The position numbers were made by a program, and so were the translations under genes. From an uncultured Cytophagales bacterium (GTDB taxonomy: Bacteria > Bacteroidota > Bacteroidia > Cytophagales > Thermoflexibacteraceae), in contig CALHUI010000014.1 of assembly GCA_938039675.1 (NCBI GenBank), forward strand, positions 186,001 to 250,000: a stretch of DNA of 64,000 nt. The letters are read 5' to 3'. Shown here piece after piece: positions 42,310-50,640 of the stretch; the stretch's first letter is position 1; each line of letters opens with the position of its first letter. The notes beneath the pieces are model-generated. The model saw only the letters and a program-made list of their open reading frames with translations, made no database searches and was not told the origin of the DNA.

Positions 42310-44406
42310 TTAGCCCAGCCGCAAGAGTATTCTGTCTCCCTTATTAAATTTAGTTCCTGCCAATACGGACTGCTGTTTTACTTTGCCTTTGCCGGTGAAA
42401 AGCACTTTGAAGCCCTTATTCTCTAATATATAGACAGCATCACGCATGGTCATTCCTACAACATTAGGCACTACATGGGCTCCCATTTTATGTCCTAACA
42501 TTTTCAATGTATCGCCGGCAGTGCGTACATATACCCACGGTTCTTTTGTTTGTACTGTTTTTTTAATGCCGAATTTCTCTGTTAGCAAGTTGAGGTCGGC
42601 CTGATACGCCGATTTAGGAACAGACGGCAATGCGTCTGCTATTTTTGCATCGGTAGTCAGCTCACGGGTCAGGCGCTGCGAATATGCAAAGTCGGCAATA
42701 TCCCGAAATACGGGTGCGGCAGCTGTTCCGCCATAGCCTCCGTCAGGATTATCCACAATGACTATACAGCTGTATATGGGGTTTTCGGCAGGGAAATAGC
42801 CTACAAAAGAGGTGTAGTGTTGTTCGGTGTAAGAGCCGCCCACTACTTTTTCGGAAGTACCTGTTTTACCTGCCATTTTAAAATATTCGCTGCGAATACT
42901 TCTGGCCGTACCGTTTTCCACTACGCCTATCATCAACTCGCGCATCTTGGCCACCGTATTAGCAGATACGAGTCTGCTACCTCTGACACCCGTTTCAAAT
43001 TCTTTCACTACGTTGTTGCCGTTCAGCACGCGCTTGACGATGTACGGCTTTACCATATAGCCGTCGTTGGCAAGGGCATTGCAAAAAGTCAGCGTATGCA
43101 GTGGCGTTAATTTCAACTCATAACCAATAGACATCCAAGGCAATGTAGCTCCGCTCCATGTAGGGTCGCTCGGGCGTTTTACAAATGGTGCAGGCTCGCC
43201 CAGCATCTGAAAATCCAACTTTTGCGTAAGCCCAAACTTATCTAAATACGCCACAAACTTTTCAGGATTCTTGCGGAAGTACTTAAAAACCAACTTAGAC
43301 GTACCAATGTTGGAGGACAGCTCAAATACCTGCCTAACGGTCAGCCGACCGTGGCCTCCTTTTTTGGTATCCGTCATAACGGCATCCTCGTAGAATCGAT
43401 AGATGCCATTACCCGTTTGAACAGTGTCATCAAGGTTGATATTGGCTTCTTCCAATAAGGCTGCCATGGTAGCAATTTTAAAAGTTGAACCCGGCTCGGC
43501 AAGGCCTGCAATTGCATAGTTATTATCTTCTACAAACTGTCCTTTTTTATCTTTGCTCAAATTGACGATAGCCTTAATGGCGCCCGTTTTAACTTCCATG
43601 ACTATGACTGAACCAAAGTCAGCATTTTTGGCAGCCAACACTTTTTGCAATGCCTGCTCGGCATGTGCCTGCAAGTCCACATTGATGGTGGTTTGAATAT
43701 CTAATCCGTCTTCGGGGCGGATGTAGGAGCCGTCGTTGATAGGTTTCCACTGTTCAGCACCCACTTTTTGGAAAATCGCCTGCCCATCGCGTCCGGCCAG
43801 CACATGCTGAAAACTGAACTCTAAACCGCGCCCGAAAACGTTTCTGCCGCTGTCTTGCTGTACAAAACCGATGGTACGGCGTGCCAAATTATCAAAAGGA
43901 CGGAAACGGTGCTCTGTTTTTTCAAAGAAAATGCCGGCCTTTTTACCCATGCTAACCATTGGCCAAACACTGATTTCATCTTTCAGTAAATGGTCAAAAG
44001 GTTCTTTGGTCAAAATTTTATAACGTTTTTTGTCTGCACGTGCTATTTTGAGTTCCTTTACCCATTGCTCTTTTGACTTTTCTCCGAATCGCTGTGCCAA
44101 CAGCGCAGCCAGTGTATCTACATACTGGTTGAAAACGGTATCTTTGGAAAAATAGGGGTCAATGGCAAGGCGGTAGTAGGGCAAACTGGTTGCCAGCAGG
44201 CTGCCGTCATCTGCCAGAATATTGCCTCTGTTGGCTTTAATGGTCTGGAAGGATACGCCGTTTTCATGAGCCTTTTTCTCCCAAAGTTCGCCCTGCCAAA
44301 CCTGAATCACCAGAATTTTAAACAGGACGAGGGCCGCAATACCCACCATACCGTAAAAGGCAAGGCGTACACGCGACAAAATAGAATTGCGAATGCTTTT
44401 GCTCAC
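42310..44406 (-). CDS. ftsI: Septal transpeptidase FtsI (class B penicillin-binding protein) with PASTA domain
   Basis: 698 residues, GTG start (MSKSIRNSIL). Cytoplasmic N-terminus, one transmembrane helix (about 15-32), a pedestal domain, and a transpeptidase domain with Ser307 in the S-x-x-K motif (EPGSTFKIA), the S-x-N motif (SSNIGTSKL) and K-T-G at about 514-516 (AGKTGTSEK). A C-terminal PASTA-type domain (about 640-698) has VPNVVGMTMRDAVYILENKG. PASTA on FtsI is common in Bacteroidota and Firmicutes. It cross-links septal peptidoglycan with FtsW. Confidence 0.96.
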   Translation of the reverse strand: MSKSIRNSILSRVRLAFYGMVGIAALVLFKILVIQVWQGELWEKKAHENGVSFQTIKANRGNILADDGSLLATSLPYYRLAIDPYFSKDTVFNQYVDTLAALLAQRFGEKSKEQWVKELKIARADKKRYKILTKEPFDHLLKDEISVWPMVSMGKKAGIFFEKTEHRFRPFDNLARRTIGFVQQDSGRNVFGRGLEFSFQHVLAGRDGQAIFQKVGAEQWKPINDGSYIRPEDGLDIQTTINVDLQAHAEQALQKVLAAKNADFGSVIVMEVKTGAIKAIVNLSKDKKGQFVEDNNYAIAGLAEPGSTFKIATMAALLEEANINLDDTVQTGNGIYRFYEDAVMTDTKKGGHGRLTVRQVFELSSNIGTSKLVFKYFRKNPEKFVAYLDKFGLTQKLDFQMLGEPAPFVKRPSDPTWSGATLPWMSIGYELKLTPLHTLTFCNALANDGYMVKPYIVKRVLNGNNVVKEFETGVRGSRLVSANTVAKMRELMIGVVENGTARSIRSEYFKMAGKTGTSEKVVGGSYTEQHYTSFVGYFPAENPIYSCIVIVDNPDGGYGGTAAAPVFRDIADFAYSQRLTRELTTDAKIADALPSVPKSAYQADLNLLTEKFGIKKTVQTKEPWVYVRTAGDTLKMLGHKMGAHVVPNVVGMTMRDAVYILENKGFKVLFTGKGKVKQQSVLAGTKFNKGDRILLRLG

Positions 44407-44528: not shown

Positions 44529-44879
44529 CTACTTATCGGCCGCCAGTTCATAGGCGGGCTTTTCGTTTTCGGTCAATCCCAATTGATTAACCTTTGTCTT
44601 AATAATGCTTCGTTTACTGCCCAAAATGAATTGTGCACGAAGCATGGTATATTCGGTACGTAACTCGGCCACCTCCTTGCGTAAACGATTCAGTGTCCGT
44701 ACACTTCGGTCGGCATAGTGCATGTTGGCGATGTAAAGAAGCCCGCACAAGGCGATGAGTAAAAAATAGCCCATCCACCCTCTGAAAAGTTTCCCTAATT
44801 TCACCGCCTGCATTTGCGCAAATAGGCTACCCTGAGTGCCTTGCCGTTGCCTTTTTGGCCTGTTTACTGCTACTGCCAT
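44529..44879 (-). CDS. FtsL-like division protein
   Basis: 116 residues from ATG 44879. An upstream in-frame TTG at 44909 is less likely. Basic N-terminus (about 1-30), one transmembrane helix (about 37-57, GYFLLIALCGLLYIANMHYA) and a periplasmic coiled coil (about 62-100, RTLNRLRKEVAELRTEYTML). Size, topology and place between rsmH and ftsI match the FtsL-like proteins of Bacteroidota, which vary strongly in sequence. It should bind FtsQ/FtsB in the divisome. The gap to ftsI is 122 nt. Confidence 0.8.
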   Translation of the reverse strand: MAVAVNRPKRQRQGTQGSLFAQMQAVKLGKLFRGWMGYFLLIALCGLLYIANMHYADRSVRTLNRLRKEVAELRTEYTMLRAQFILGSKRSIIKTKVNQLGLTENEKPAYELAADK

Positions 44880-44932
44880 ATGCTCTAATTTTCTTATTTG
44901 TTCATACAAATGCTATAAGCACCATCCGCAAA

Positions 44933-45838
44933 TTATATCTTAACTGCGACACGCATTTTTGCACTACGGGCGCGATTATTCATTTTTATTTCCTCTTCCG
45001 AAGGTTGTATTATCTGCCGGTTAAGTGCTTTGAATGGTTTAATATCATTTCCGTAAACATCTTTTTCTACTTCTCCTTCAAATTTTCCTTTGTTAATAAA
45101 ATTTTTTACCAATCTATCTTCCAGCGAATGATAGGAAAGCACTACAAGCCTGCCACCCGGTTTGAGCAACTCTGCTGCCTGATGGAGCATGTCGCGCAAT
45201 GCCCCCATTTCATCGTTCACCTCAATGCGTAACGCTTGAAAAACTTGTGCGTAATACTTGTACTTCCTAAATCGGGGGGCAAATTTTTCCAATACTGCCA
45301 GCAAATCGTTAATGGTCTGAATGGGCTTGCGCGCCCTTGCCGAAACGATGCCTTCTGCCAGTGTTTTGGCGTTGGTTACTTCGCCATAGCGCCCTAACAT
45401 TTTATGCAGTGCCGTTGCATCATAATTAGCAATTATATCGGCTGCCGAAACGGGTTGTTCTCTGTCCATTCGCATGTCCAGCGGCGCATCAAATCGGATG
45501 GAAAAGCCCCGTTCTGATTCGTCGAGCTGGTGCGAAGAGACACCCAAGTCAGCCAAAATGCCGTCTAATGCTGTTACGCCATAGACCTTTAAGTAACGTT
45601 TGGCAAAACGAAAATTAGATTTAATGAAGGTAAAACCTTCAAAGTTGATTTTCGCTGCCTGTTCTGCTGCGTCTTGGTCTTGGTCAAAAGCGAAAAGCCG
45701 CCCCTTATCAAGTTTTTCAATAATCGCTCGGCTGTGGCCGCCGCCGCCAAAAGTAAAGTCTGCATAAGTGCCGTTCGGGTCAGTAACCAATGCCTCCACG
45801 CTTGGTTGCACAAGCACCGGAATATGATATTCACTCAT
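44933..45838 (-). CDS. rsmH: 16S rRNA (cytosine-1402-N4)-methyltransferase
   Basis: 301 residues. RsmH methylates C1402 of 16S rRNA near the P site. N-terminal YHIPVLVQPSVEAL, then the SAM loop FTFGGGGHSRAII (about 27-39), DLGVSSHQLDESERGFS (about 100-116) and the C-terminal SYHSLEDRLVKNFI. Length is normal. Its ATG overlaps the mraZ stop as ATGA, so the two are translationally coupled. Confidence 0.97.
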   Translation of the reverse strand: MSEYHIPVLVQPSVEALVTDPNGTYADFTFGGGGHSRAIIEKLDKGRLFAFDQDQDAAEQAAKINFEGFTFIKSNFRFAKRYLKVYGVTALDGILADLGVSSHQLDESERGFSIRFDAPLDMRMDREQPVSAADIIANYDATALHKMLGRYGEVTNAKTLAEGIVSARARKPIQTINDLLAVLEKFAPRFRKYKYYAQVFQALRIEVNDEMGALRDMLHQAAELLKPGGRLVVLSYHSLEDRLVKNFINKGKFEGEVEKDVYGNDIKPFKALNRQIIQPSEEEIKMNNRARSAKMRVAVKI

Positions 45839-46290
45839 AAATTACCCTCCCTACCAAAAACTCGCTCTGCCATTTGCGAAAACTGCTTGGAGTCCTGCAC
45901 CAGCGCGGCCTCGTATGCATCGGGTTGCCAAATTTCTACGCGATTGCCCGCACCGACTACAATAGCGTCTTTCTCAATATTGGCATACTTCAACATGGTA
46001 CGCGGTACCAAAAAACGCCCTGCCGAATCCAACTCCACTTCGGTATTGCCCCGAAAGAAATTCCGCTGGAACGTGCGGTATTCTTCCACAAATTCGTTGA
46101 GGGCAATGACCCGCTCGGAAAGTTCTTTCCAGTAAACCAATGAATACAAGATGATGCAAGGCTCAAAACCACGCGTCAGCACGATGGTTTCTGCCGATTC
46201 GGGAGGCAATGCCGCCTTGATTTTCGCTGGCAAAACCAATCGCCCTTTGGCATCTAACTTACATTCGTATTCGCCACTAAATGCAGGCAT
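45835..46290 (-). CDS. mraZ: MraZ transcriptional regulator
   Basis: 151 residues. MraZ is a double SpoVT-AbrB-fold DNA-binding protein that forms a ring and controls the dcw cluster. N-terminal CKLDAKGRLVLPAKIKA (about 10-26) and C-terminal VELDSAGRFLVPRTMLKYA (about 80-98) are the two AbrB signatures with their DNA-contacting Arg. It is first in the leftward cluster. A Bacteroidota promoter and a row of GTGG repeats lie directly upstream. Confidence 0.96.
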   Translation of the reverse strand: MPAFSGEYECKLDAKGRLVLPAKIKAALPPESAETIVLTRGFEPCIILYSLVYWKELSERVIALNEFVEEYRTFQRNFFRGNTEVELDSAGRFLVPRTMLKYANIEKDAIVVGAGNRVEIWQPDAYEAALVQDSKQFSQMAERVFGREGNL

Positions 46291-46327
46291 TTTTTTGCAC
46301 TTAAAGCATTACTTGAACTTTTTAAGA

Positions 46328-46357
46328 CAAAGCTAAGAATTCGTTCTTAAAAATCAA
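46328..46357 (-). promoter_or_regulatory. Promoter of the dcw cluster
   Basis: Minus-strand TAGCTTTG (46328-46335) matches TAnnTTTG. TTG at 46355-46357 lies 19 nt upstream, the exact -33 spacing. The ATG of mraZ is 37 nt from the -7 box. This is the only clean promoter seen for the whole cluster. Confidence 0.7.
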
Positions 46358-46422
46358 CCACAATTTACCACTTTTTACCACTTTTTGCTCTTTTGATGCC
46401 ACAATTGCAGTTTTAACGCCAC
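46357..46422 (-). promoter_or_regulatory. Array of GTGG boxes, candidate MraZ-binding site
   Basis: On the minus strand GTGGT occurs at 46357-46361, 46367-46371 and 46377-46381, exactly 10 nt apart, and GTGGC follows at 46399-46402 and 46419-46422 with offsets of 21 and 20 nt, so all lie on about one face of the helix. Two units read AAAAAGTGGT, like the AAAGTG-type boxes described for MraZ in Mollicutes; E. coli boxes are TGGGN with 5-nt gaps. The array abuts the -33 element. The MraZ target is an inference. Confidence 0.65.
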
Positions 46423-46665
46423 TTTTATACTAAAAATAACCTTTTTATTGCCTCTGTATTAGCTTTTTTAATTTGCGAAAAATTAAAACTTTTAATATTA
46501 AACTATTGATTTACAGATATTTAAAAACTCAATTTTAAACTTAAAATTTAACCTTTGTATTCGTGGCAATGTATTTTTAATTTGTGGGGGTATTTCCCAA
46601 AAAATACACCCTCGCACAAGTTTTAGAATTGCTACTTGCAGTATGAAGCAGTTTATTTTACAGCT
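46423..46665. other. AT-rich divergent intergenic region
   Basis: About 240 nt, strongly AT-rich. It has no supportable ORF. AACCTTTG (46551-46558) is close to a -7 box for the rightward gene; GGGGGTATTT (46586-46595) and AAATACACCC (46602-46611) form a 9-of-10-bp hairpin in the presumed leader of that gene. Confidence 0.45.
46586..46611 (+). promoter_or_regulatory. Hairpin in the leader of the AsmA-like gene
   Basis: GGGGGTATTT pairs with AAATACACCC, 9 of 10 pairs, with a 6-nt loop. It lies about 55-80 nt before the start codon. There is no T-run after it, so it is not an obvious terminator. A leader structure or binding site is possible. Confidence 0.35.
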
Positions 46666-49600
46666 ATGATTCGCTACTCGGGCTTTATGTACTTATTCAG
46701 GAAACGCAAGCGCTTTCGGATGATAGCAGCTCTGGTGGTCTTTTCGCTTGCTTTTCTTGTTGCAAAATGGATACAATCTTACACCGACCGACTGCTGGGA
46801 CAGGCAATCGTAGCGCTGATTGTACAAGAAACACGGGGTAATTATGGCGTAAGCTATGAGGATTTGCAGTTTGAGGTATTAAAAAACAGGTTACAGCTCA
46901 GCGGGCTGGCTATTTTCCCTCATAAGCAGGACTCGAGCACCACCATTAACCGTTACGGGCTTCGTGTCAAATCGGTTTCATTAGAAACAGAAAGCCTGTG
47001 GCAAATCTATTTCACCAAAGAGTTGAAAATTATAGGCTTAACGCTTATCAAACCTGAAATAAAAGTAGAAAACTTCGCCGACCGCGAACAAAAGGGGTTT
47101 ACTTTCTCTCGCCAAACAGGCAATCTGTACCTGCTCATCAGAAACTATTTAGACAAGTTTCAAATTCGCCACTTTGCCTTGTATCAGGCTTCGCTTGCTT
47201 TTGTGCACCATGGCGCAAACCGCACGTCCGACTACCAACTGCGGCACGTCAATTTCGTATTGCAAAATCTGGTTATTGACTCTGCCTCCGCACACAACAA
47301 AAAGAAAATTTTCTATGCCGATGGTTTTGACCTAAGCATTGACGGTCAGGAAATTATGTTACCGGACAGCCTTCATGCGTTTACTTTTGACAAGTTGGAA
47401 ATCAGTACGCAAAAGGCGGCTATTACCTTCCGCAATTTTCGTTTATTGCCCCGCAACGGTTTGTCCGATTCCGAAAATGCTTACCGAATGAGTGTACCCG
47501 AATTAAGTTTTCAGGGGGTAGACTTCGCCATTGCTTACAATGATAACAAATTGCTTATCAAAAATTTAAATATTCAACAGCCAGATATTGCCATTGCACG
47601 GGCGACTCGCAAAAGCAAAAAGTCTGCGGGTAAGTCTTGGCAGGCAGACCGCACTTTTCTGAAAATCATGGCGGCAATTTTTGACAGCGTCGCCATAGAA
47701 AAATGCAGGCTTGCTAAGGGGGCATTTGTATTAAACGAAGGCAAGCAACCCAAGTTACTGTTGCCACAAGTAGATTTCGCGCTGGATTCATTCGCTTTTG
47801 CCGTGCCCGATACTTCTGAAACTGCCGGTTTTCCTGCTCTGCGCAATGCAGAATTAACACTGCACAACCAGCGCTTTTTTTTCGGAGACAGCCTCTACAT
47901 GGTGCAGATGCGTTATTTTAAACTCACATCGCATCCGGCAGAGGTGCACGCTTCAGGCATCGCTTTCAAACAATGGTACGGCGACCGATTCTACAAGCAG
48001 TTCAGTACTGACTCGCTGGCAGCCCGATTGTATCGCTGGGAGCAACTTGCCACCGAAGAAGTACCTGATTTTCAGTATGTACATTTGATAAGACCTGCCG
48101 TTCGTCGACAGATAACCCTTGCAGGCCGACAAGAACCCAAACCAAAAAGCAACAAACTACGCAAAATCAAAAGCATCCTGATAGATGATTTCCGAATAAC
48201 CGAAGGGGATGTATTGCTAACCGGCACAGGGCAGAGTCTGCACCTGAAAGGTTGTCGCTTGCATATGCGGAGGCTTTCTTTGTCCGACAGTCCGTCTTTG
48301 TGGGCAGAACAACTGCCACAGGCAACCGCCGACCTTTTCGTTCGTGAAACCATTTGGCAAAACGAACACCAAAATCTGCAATCGGCAGACATGCACATAC
48401 GCACCCACAAAGGGCTGTTGCAGGCTGATGGCAAGGGCGTAGTCATTGCTCCGCGAACCGCGGAAACTGCGCCGATAGCAGGTTCTATTCGCCAATTTTT
48501 GCTGAAAAACCTGCTCATTAAAGACCTGACGAGCAAAGAGCTGCAGCCTGTATTTGATACATTGCGACTGACGGATGCGCATTTGCAATTGCTCATAGGG
48601 CGCGGACAATCGGCCTATCAGTCATTTGCTCGCAACTTACGGGGAACAATTGTTACCGCGCAATCCTCATTGACCCTTAAAGGGCAAGCAGGAGATATGG
48701 CAGAATTGTGGGGCATAAATGGTACGTTGTTTTTTCAACCCGATTCGCTGCCGGTGATACGTCAGGAGGCGACCGCGCTGCAAGGCACTTGGGCAGGCTA
48801 CCGTTTTGCCGCTCACCTTCCGCTGATAGATACTGAAGACGGCAGTATTTTACTGCATCGATTTACACTCAATACCACCCGCAGCGATTCGGCTTTGGTT
48901 GCTTTGCAAAAGCTGTCCGTGTGCGGTTGGGATGCTGCCGCATGGAGCAATAAACACCTGAAAATTAACACCTTAGAGGTTCAACAACTCAACGGTTATT
49001 TCATCGGCAGGGCATTGCAGACAGCCCCCTCTTTTTTTGACAGCCTCCGTATAGATACGCTGACGGTAACAAGCGATAGTTTTGGTTTGGATTTACCCGC
49101 TAGTCGTTTGCAAGTACAACAGTTACACGGCCAACTGGCAGGGTTGTGCATAAGTCCTTCGGCTGTGGCCATTCATCAAATCAATGCTTTTCGAGCAGGG
49201 TTGGCAACAATTCGGCTGCAACCTGTTGAACTTCACTTTTCGGAAGCGCATCTGGCAGATACTGCCGCGCAACTGCTTACATTCAGCGATTTGCAACTGA
49301 TACACAAGGACTTTGACGGCACTTTTCAACAGGCATCACTGGCATTACCCAATAAAGAATGGCTGCCAAACAGCCTGCCCGTAGTTGGCAACCTTGTGCT
49401 TGCCGACGGGGCAATCCGCCTGCATCCCGATTCAGTACGGCAATCACTCCCGCCCATTGCACATCCGCGCATTGGCAGCGTAGATATTCGGCGCACCCGC
49501 CTGAGCGGCGAGCAACTGAGTGCCGACATCCATCTGCTGCGCTTAGAACAACCTTTTACCGATAATCAGCAGCCATTTTTTCGTGTGCATGTGGGCAATC

Positions 49601-50640
49601 TGCGATGGTTGTTGCCCAACGGACGCGACCTGCTACAAGTCGGCACATTATTTTATGAGCCCGTTACACAACAACTGCACGCAGACTCCGTCAGTTTTCG
49701 CCCCGCTATGTCTGTGGAAGAGTTTTACCGACGCTATCCGTTTCAGCGGAGTTACAATACCTATCAGGCGCATCGGGCAATTGTCTATGCGCCGCAATGG
49801 CAAAAACTGCTTGCCGGTCAAGGTTTTGCTGCTACATCTGCCGTGTTAAACGGCGTAAGCAGCCATGTGTTTCTGGACAAAAACATGCAGCATTTGAAAG
49901 AAGACCGCCTCTTTCCGTTAGAAAAATTCAAACAAATGGCACTGCCTGTGCGCATAGATACAATAAAGTTGCTCAACGGCAACCTGTATTACCGAGAGAA
50001 AACGCGCCGCCACGAAATCGCCTCGTTCAGTTTGCAAAACATCAGCGGCTACCTCTATGGGCTGAACAACCGCCCTGCCCCCGCCGAAAGCGTCTATTTG
50101 CGCCTGAATGCAGCCCCAGAAGGCCGAGGCGAAATGGATTTGGACATCTATTTTGCCGCAGGTAACGACCGAGGAATGCATCGCATTGAGGCAACCTTTG
50201 ACACCATTCCTTTATCTGTATTCAACGGCATGGCAGAACCGCTGGTAGGCATTCGGATTAATCGCGGGCAAATCAATAACGGCAGCATGATGGTAACGGC
50301 AGACCGCGACCAAGCCTCCGGCAAAATGTGGCTTTACTACAAAAACCTGAAATTCAGAGTATTAAGCCGAAAAACTACCGGTCAGGACAAGATTATTACC
50401 AAAAATAGCCCGCTGCTGACCATGCTTGCCAACACACTGATTCGCAACAAAAACCGACGGATTAAACTCTACAAAGGCAAAAGCGGCTACATAGCCCAAG
50501 CACGCGAGCCCGAAAAATCGCTGTTTTCTTATTGGGGACGCATTGTGGTCAATGGGGTACTCAGCAGCATCGGCATCAGCCAGCGCACACAGGCCAAATG
50601 GCGGCAACAAATGCGCGAACGCGCCGAAAAACAAGACTAA
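46666..50640 (+). CDS. Very large AsmA-like membrane-anchored protein
   Basis: 1324 residues from ATG 46666; ATG 46687 is a second option and a TTG at 46636 is less likely. A basic N-terminus and one transmembrane helix (about 20-40, MIAALVVFSLAFLVAKWI) are followed by some 1270 residues of repeated beta strands with helices rare, ending LFSYWGRIVVNGVLSSIGIS. This is the form of AsmA/TamB/DUF748-like proteins, which probably span the periplasm as beta-rich bridges and move lipid to the outer membrane. Assignment by pattern only. It is divergent from mraZ. Confidence 0.65.
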   Translation: MIRYSGFMYLFRKRKRFRMIAALVVFSLAFLVAKWIQSYTDRLLGQAIVALIVQETRGNYGVSYEDLQFEVLKNRLQLSGLAIFPHKQDSSTTINRYGLRVKSVSLETESLWQIYFTKELKIIGLTLIKPEIKVENFADREQKGFTFSRQTGNLYLLIRNYLDKFQIRHFALYQASLAFVHHGANRTSDYQLRHVNFVLQNLVIDSASAHNKKKIFYADGFDLSIDGQEIMLPDSLHAFTFDKLEISTQKAAITFRNFRLLPRNGLSDSENAYRMSVPELSFQGVDFAIAYNDNKLLIKNLNIQQPDIAIARATRKSKKSAGKSWQADRTFLKIMAAIFDSVAIEKCRLAKGAFVLNEGKQPKLLLPQVDFALDSFAFAVPDTSETAGFPALRNAELTLHNQRFFFGDSLYMVQMRYFKLTSHPAEVHASGIAFKQWYGDRFYKQFSTDSLAARLYRWEQLATEEVPDFQYVHLIRPAVRRQITLAGRQEPKPKSNKLRKIKSILIDDFRITEGDVLLTGTGQSLHLKGCRLHMRRLSLSDSPSLWAEQLPQATADLFVRETIWQNEHQNLQSADMHIRTHKGLLQADGKGVVIAPRTAETAPIAGSIRQFLLKNLLIKDLTSKELQPVFDTLRLTDAHLQLLIGRGQSAYQSFARNLRGTIVTAQSSLTLKGQAGDMAELWGINGTLFFQPDSLPVIRQEATALQGTWAGYRFAAHLPLIDTEDGSILLHRFTLNTTRSDSALVALQKLSVCGWDAAAWSNKHLKINTLEVQQLNGYFIGRALQTAPSFFDSLRIDTLTVTSDSFGLDLPASRLQVQQLHGQLAGLCISPSAVAIHQINAFRAGLATIRLQPVELHFSEAHLADTAAQLLTFSDLQLIHKDFDGTFQQASLALPNKEWLPNSLPVVGNLVLADGAIRLHPDSVRQSLPPIAHPRIGSVDIRRTRLSGEQLSADIHLLRLEQPFTDNQQPFFRVHVGNLRWLLPNGRDLLQVGTLFYEPVTQQLHADSVSFRPAMSVEEFYRRYPFQRSYNTYQAHRAIVYAPQWQKLLAGQGFAATSAVLNGVSSHVFLDKNMQHLKEDRLFPLEKFKQMALPVRIDTIKLLNGNLYYREKTRRHEIASFSLQNISGYLYGLNNRPAPAESVYLRLNAAPEGRGEMDLDIYFAAGNDRGMHRIEATFDTIPLSVFNGMAEPLVGIRINRGQINNGSMMVTADRDQASGKMWLYYKNLKFRVLSRKTTGQDKIITKNSPLLTMLANTLIRNKNRRIKLYKGKSGYIAQAREPEKSLFSYWGRIVVNGVLSSIGISQRTQAKWRQQMRERAEKQD

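Follow-up and report, generated by a model that had tools for sequence, protein, structure and literature searches.

Phased GTGG repeats as probable MraZ boxes at the dcw promoter of a Cytophagales bacterium and their placement relative to the promoter across its class

Upstream of mraZ in an uncultured Cytophagales bacterium (GenBank assembly GCA_938039675.1, contig CALHUI010000014.1, positions 186,001 to 250,000; this whole stretch of 64,000 nt is called the window below), an array of GTGG repeats adjoins the -33 position of the promoter of the dcw cluster. Its reading as a set of MraZ boxes is well supported by sequence comparison, and we consider it probable that the array is the MraZ operator of this promoter, with negative autoregulation by occlusion as its output. 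Arrays of a GTG core with a 10-nt step are already a known kind of MraZ array, from Escherichia coli and Burkholderia cenocepacia, and what is new is the promoter-side variant: as far as can be judged from consensus matches, the new result is the operator/promoter architecture, with a switch of side in the class to which the window belongs. Among the matches listed in the open-licence literature, none dealt with MraZ sites of Bacteroidota. We infer MraZ binding, repression, the transcription start site and the history of the arrangement.

Array, promoter and genes at the window locus

Five GTGG units start on the minus strand at 46422, 46402, 46381, 46371 and 46361, in steps of 20, 21, 10 and 10 nt, exactly the positions and spacing given by the first-pass annotation, and they lie 68 to 132 nt 5′ of the mraZ start codon (46290). 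Three read GTGGT and two GTGGC, and only the last three keep the exact 10-nt step. The promoter-proximal core (AATTGTGGT, 46358-46361) has its first G at about -38 and abuts the -33-position TTG; cores 2 and 3, both recognized by sequence as AAAAGTGGT, occupy 46368-46371 and 46378-46381. Of the two distal GTGGC units, CAATTGTGGC (46399-46402) is 21 nt from core 3 and has a counterpart in three of four genus members, and AAAAGTGGC (46419-46422) lies 20 nt beyond it and has a counterpart in two of the four, so that in this four-member comparison the distal pair is less conserved than the proximal three.

Of these units, Tandem Repeats Finder returned only those of the 10-nt array (2.3 copies, 100%). 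When the 375-nt intergenic region was shuffled 200,000 times, three GTGG units in 10-nt phase never appeared and at least five GTGG appeared 16 times. The strict pattern GTGGN6GTGGN6GTGG has a single match in the 3,283,007-base genome, which is this array, and its backwards control has none. An MraZ operator would be expected to consist of direct repeats (at least three) of a GTG core at a 10-nt step, located at the mraZ/dcw promoter, conserved with mraZ and missing without it; the window has such repeats at 46381, 46371 and 46361, next to TTG-N19-TAGCTTTG, and conservation follows mraZ as described below. A 1334-aa open frame (46636-50640, plus strand) runs divergently from mraZ and shares the same intergenic region.

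Directly after the last GTGG comes the TTG (46357-46355, minus strand), which bears out the earlier remark that the array touches the -33 element, and after a further 19 nt the -7 box TAGCTTTG (46335-46328, minus strand), a match to the Bacteroidota primary-sigma box TANNTTTG. The last GTGG therefore starts 26 nt before this box, a distance (+26) shared by 25 of 30 same-order loci; at the same offset TANNTTTG itself is present in 23 of the 30 and TANNTTT(G/A) in 25. Both the consensus and its placement at -12 to -5, given for F. psychrophilum, come from the accessible part of PMC9723704. Because the -7 box is taken as -12 to -5, transcription is predicted to start near 46323, which would leave a 33-nt mraZ leader (46291-46323, minus strand) and put the beginning of the proximal unit at about -38; the same rule gives a median leader of 33 nt in the order. 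The -33 region reads GTTGA, that is, TTG only, as against the TTTG of the Bacteroidota consensus, and in F. johnsoniae a -33 motif was reported as not found, according to the available text of PMC7366714. A sigma-70 scan of the region gave one site where 2.3 were expected, as would be the case for a TANNTTTG promoter. An inverted repeat, TAAGAA-CGAA-TTCTTA (46334-46349), occupies the space between -33 and -7, and is probably due to chance since it is absent from a near relative (locus L004).

MraZ proteins are defined by one DXXXR motif per half. The 151-aa product of the gene at 45835-46290 (minus strand) carries D13-R17 and D88-R92, both conserved with E. coli MraZ, with which it shares D13, K15, G16, R17, D88 and R92. 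Two stretches of it match the Pfam MraZ domain (PF02381) at 107.8 bits, above the curated cut-off of 23, and TIGR00242 is matched at 117.4 bits (cut-off 98.35), five other MraZ models staying under their cut-offs. Its relatives of solved structure are MraZ proteins in many-chain entries (9qlg, 9r4j, 9qlr, 9sx6 and 9sz7). There follow, all on the minus strand, rsmH (mraW; 44933-45838; Pfam Methyltransf_5, 318.4 bits), an ftsL-like gene (44529-44909; Pfam FtsL_2, 61.8 bits) and an ftsI-like gene for a penicillin-binding protein with a PASTA domain (42310-44406; Pfam Transpeptidase, PBP_dimer and PASTA), an order that confirms the dcw cluster.

Conservation of the array and likeness to known MraZ sites

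Scanning for chains of GTGG at 10 nt with a score of at least 2 within 400 nt 5′ of mraZ returned the array in 30 of 31 same-order, 87 of 90 other same-class and 58 of 64 other same-phylum loci (shuffles, 0.4-0.6%), where order, class and phylum are labels of kinship, many loci are related and the counts are not independent. At a score of 2.5 it was retained in 30, 73 and 33 of these loci, and at a score of 3 in 25, 61 and 17. The opposite-strand control gave 4/31, 21/90 and 15/64 at a score of 2, and 0, 1 and 1 at 2.5. Loci from the rest of the class represent 86 of 173 out-of-order class genomes with a match, plus four from the phylum scan, and those outside the class represent 64 of 245 genomes with a match, chosen by family among the matches listed. 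In a separate scan of 80 named loci, which have several genomes in common with the other sets (among them a Bernardetiaceae MAG of the window's genus), all 79 with enough upstream DNA showed the array at a score of at least 2.5. GTGG units are conserved upstream of mraZ in order, class and phylum alike, the outcome by which the first-pass annotation had proposed to check its MraZ boxes; since GTGG was the search criterion, its conservation is not independent evidence.

Presence of the array also follows presence of the gene. MraZ is widely conserved, with 327 of 345 sampled genomes of the phylum. In the relatives set (59 genomes, own genome included) mraZ was found in 29, once as a fragment. 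Of the rsmH loci of the 30 genomes without an mraZ match, 28 had at least 400 nt of upstream sequence and just one (L196) showed a two-unit array. In that locus (genome G007, a family member with no mraZ found and none next to rsmH) GTGGGAAAAAGTGGGGAGAAGGGG is located about 246 nt 5′ of rsmH with an TAGTTTTG box downstream of it, and in sequence it looks like a promoter left behind after mraZ loss. All 30 genomes in which mraZ was not found have kept rsmH, which suggests that loss of mraZ is frequent in this order.

Across the same 59 genomes the strict array has 42 matches, 23 of them within 360 nt 5′ of mraZ (two of these at 245 and 358 nt). The 19 matches elsewhere compare with 18 for the backwards control, and a wider MraZ regulon, sought with the strict three-unit array, is accordingly not supported; judged by this pattern, no target other than the dcw promoter rises above the control level. 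Conservation at these frequencies, a single two-unit remnant among the loci without mraZ and one strict site in the whole genome leave the MraZ-box reading of the first-pass annotation well supported.

The consensus of the E. coli-type MraZ box is TGGGN, and none of the five window units contains its TGGG core. Before mraZ of E. coli K-12, however, the units are GTGGGAAATT, GTGGGGCAAA and GTGGGAATAA: as in the window, three GTGG cores stand at a 10-nt step directly 5′ of mraZ at the E. coli promoter Pmra (Eraso et al. 2014, as cited in PMC7761207 and PMC8475190), and the regulator belongs to the same family with its conserved DXXXR motifs. The differences are that the E. coli units read GTGGG and start 7 nt after a -10-like TAAACT, whereas the window has GTGGT and GTGGC units 5′ of -33, a TANNTTTG promoter and two looser distal units. 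The base after GTGG is T or C in the window and G in E. coli; it is T at a frequency of 0.61 and G at 0.27 in the order; for the other loci of the class the values are T 0.52 and G 0.36, and outside the class G reaches 0.80.

The MraZ site of Mollicutes is reported to be made up of AAAGTG[T/G] direct repeats (Fisunov et al. 2016, as cited in PMC8475190 and PMC5138195). Units 46422, 46381 and 46371 fit this word as AAAGTGG, whereas units 46402 and 46361 read ATTGTGG and the promoter type differs. As is reported for Mycoplasma genitalium, the genome has one strict site only, and it lies at the promoter of mraZ. The earlier claim that the box is nearer to the Mollicutes form than to that of E. 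coli is weakened: three of the five units fit the Mollicutes word and two do not, and the contrast with E. coli is weak because the K-12 units share the core and the 10-nt step and the following base varies.

For B. cenocepacia, PMC7761207 describes four 7-nt GTG repeats with 3-nt spacers before mraZ (hence a 10-nt step), on a fragment shifted by MraZ; these repeats are downstream of the -10 and overlap the start site. In the mraZ leader of Staphylococcus aureus a guanine-rich stretch 3′ of the promoter has been studied as a G-quadruplex (PMC11796246, available part), and it may be worth checking as an MraZ-box candidate.

These comparisons bear on two other readings of the array. A regulator other than MraZ might bind it, and a TTWTYAACA element common in the rest of the class could mean that a second factor acts nearby there; we regard this as very improbable, given that loci in which no mraZ was found almost never have the array, that its core and step are those of the E. 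coli array and that MraZ of other phyla is reported on such GTG repeats in the excerpts cited above. The relevant signal might otherwise be 10-nt-phased A-tracts instead of GTGG, with intrinsically bent DNA helping the promoter without any bound regulator. Most units are indeed preceded by AAA in helical phase, the three places before GTGG having A at 0.85-0.91 in the order, but this falls to 0.51-0.62 outside the class while the GTGG step persists, in E. coli the bases before the units are TTCA, AATT and CAAA, and arrays hardly ever occur where no mraZ was found. Such an account is likewise very improbable, and MraZ boxes are the reading retained here.

Side of the promoter and mode of action

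The distance between the last GTGG and the -7 box takes two values. TANNTTT(G/A) is found at +15/16 or +25/26 from the last GTGG in 28 of 30 loci of the order, 56 of 87 of the rest of the class and 73 of 79 named loci, compared to none of 58 outside the class and 0.6-1.9% of shuffles; the two registers differ by one unit, about one helical turn. The shorter one, with the last unit 15-16 nt before the -7 box, accounts for 50/87, 35/79 and 2/30 loci of the rest of the class, the named set and the order, respectively. This puts the last unit of the +16-type loci into the spacer between -33 and -7, where MraZ on the DNA would be expected to stand in the way of polymerase; the window, a +26 locus, has no such extra unit. 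Outside the class a different arrangement prevails: 44 of 58 loci have a TTGAY-N16-18-TANNNT match with its end 0-20 nt 5′ of the first unit (0 of 117 within the class), so that the array would cover the start site there, and E. coli, its promoter likewise upstream, resembles these loci. Promoters in this comparison are consensus matches, and neither rule fits 2/30 array-bearing loci in the order, 31/87 in the class and 14/58 outside.

A TTG at the -33 position is present in 15 of 26 +25/26-type loci of the order (spacer 18-20) and in both of its +16-type loci, and in the named set in 14/38 (+26) and 26/35 (+16). Elsewhere in the class none of the 56 loci in register has it, so that the idea of a box fused to -33 holds only within the order.

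Mapped onto an MraZ tree (n = 127), the side of the array changes once, at a node with support 99/94 and in 98% of 200 bootstrap trees, as opposed to 36 changes on average for shuffled labels. The tree has 84 sequences labelled as array upstream, 42 of 44 labelled as array downstream (two were too short) and E. coli, labelled by hand; its bootstrap is not fully settled, the branch to E. coli is long and rooting is at the midpoint only. Since the arrays of E. coli and B. cenocepacia lie downstream, the downstream arrangement would appear to have come first. Between the last unit and the start codon there are, in the median, 71 nt in the order, 45 in the class and 58 outside, which indicates that the array remains close to mraZ and that it is the promoter which moves from one side to the other.

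The model that we favour is the following. MraZ, described as a ring with one subunit to each box (PMC7761207), has many two-domain subunits, and neighbouring ones would sit on successive 10-bp units, all on the same side of the helix. The proximal unit lies directly against the -33 TTG; MraZ on it would hide the site used by sigma region 4, and rising MraZ would shut its own promoter and hence rsmH, ftsL and ftsI. In the class of the window, occlusion would come from upstream or from within the -33/-7 spacer; in E. coli, as in most of the loci that lie outside the class, it would come from downstream, over the start site. On the simplest history, the operator would have kept a roughly fixed distance from the mraZ start and the promoter would have been replaced on its other side, once, at about the time when TANNTTTG-type promoters were adopted in the class. 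Occlusion with negative autoregulation explains both sides of the switch by one rule.

The first-pass annotation had read the place of the array upstream of -33 as also fitting activation. In that case MraZ bound to the same operator would touch sigma or the alpha subunit and activate the dcw promoter in a class II-like manner. Class II activators bind at about -38, which is where the last unit of the window is, adjoining the TTG; array and -7 box keep a fixed register, E. coli and most outside-class loci have their promoter on the opposite side, and the +26 layout, without a spacer unit, would suit an activator touching sigma. That positional hint is nevertheless weakened by the relatives, since a unit between -33 and -7, as found in the +16-type loci of the rest of the class and the named set, is a poor place for an activator, and a fixed register is equally explained by common descent together with an array touching -33. 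MraZ is also annotated as a repressor in the E. coli K-12 record, and for M. genitalium the accessible part of PMC8475190 states that it represses the cluster, deletion raising cluster expression. We take activation to be unlikely, and repression by occlusion is the likelier mode because so many relatives have the extra unit inside the spacer. The same source, as far as available, reports that overexpression of MraZ in Mycoplasma gallisepticum went with more FtsZ, a result which on our analysis does not fit simple repression.

Inverted pairs and other elements upstream of the array

The opposite-strand control signal proved not to be noise: it stems from inverted pairs of MraZ-type GTGG boxes. 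Pairs on the opposite strand spaced by exactly 10 nt, within 400 nt upstream, are found in 21/90 loci of the class, 15/64 outside it, 4/31 of the order and 23/80 named loci, and each of the remaining spacings between 4 and 35 nt is seen in at most five loci of any set. The pair lies upstream of the main array, 41-217 nt from it in 35 of 38 loci (within 600 nt), and 28 of the 41 listed are outside open frames of at least 80 codons. Further out (400-1150 nt upstream in the named set) the 10-nt pair still occurs in five loci and is the commonest spacing there. Examples are L090, L095, L128, L045, L258 and L302, 137-285 nt 5′ of mraZ, with a consensus near GTGGGAGAAAGTGG. E. coli has no such pair within 434 nt, nor does the window, whose two plus-strand GTGG (46563 and 46584) have a spacing of 21 nt, the former seen in one of three genus relatives and the latter in none.

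Inverted pairs are a hint of DNA looping by the MraZ ring. One could imagine that in the class ancestor the promoter changed sides at a standing operator and that MraZ control was rewired along with it: the array, in fixed helical register with the new promoter, would combine, in about one fifth of sampled loci, with the inverted pair some 40-220 bp further out to make up a looped or wrapped complex of the MraZ ring, by which dcw transcription is activated or tuned and not simply blocked. We hold this extension to be unlikely. A common helical phase of the main array and the inverted pair was considered and is not claimed: the Rayleigh statistic was strongest at 12.0 and 11.0 and weaker at 10.5, among loci that are related.

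Within 100 nt before the array, TTWTYAACA is present in 48 of 87 rest-of-class loci (1.5 expected), mostly 11-12 nt before the first unit (for instance L138, L103 and L071), and the DnaA-box-like TTWTCCACA in 9 of 87 (0.2 expected; for instance L137); the 30 same-order loci have one and three, respectively. Clusters of the TTWTYAACA/TTWTCCACA word were found in 6 of 198 genomes (seven places) compared to two control matches, and 18 dnaA upstream regions held TTWTCAACA once, TTWTTAACA three times and TTWTCCACA not at all (expected 0.4, 1.2 and 0.1). A DnaA box and an inverted, decayed MraZ box are equally possible identities for these words.

The effect of MraZ is disputed, the protein being described, in the partial texts cited here, as a repressor in E. 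coli and M. genitalium and associated with more FtsZ in M. gallisepticum. A motif can now be given for the dcw promoter in this class, namely GTGG units at 10 nt, the last of them +15/16 or +25/26 before TANNTTTR, and the inverted pair of the relatives makes one ask whether the MraZ ring loops DNA. A clade whose promoter stands, after one clean switch, on the opposite side of the same operator amounts to a natural experiment on how the position of the array relates to the sign of regulation.
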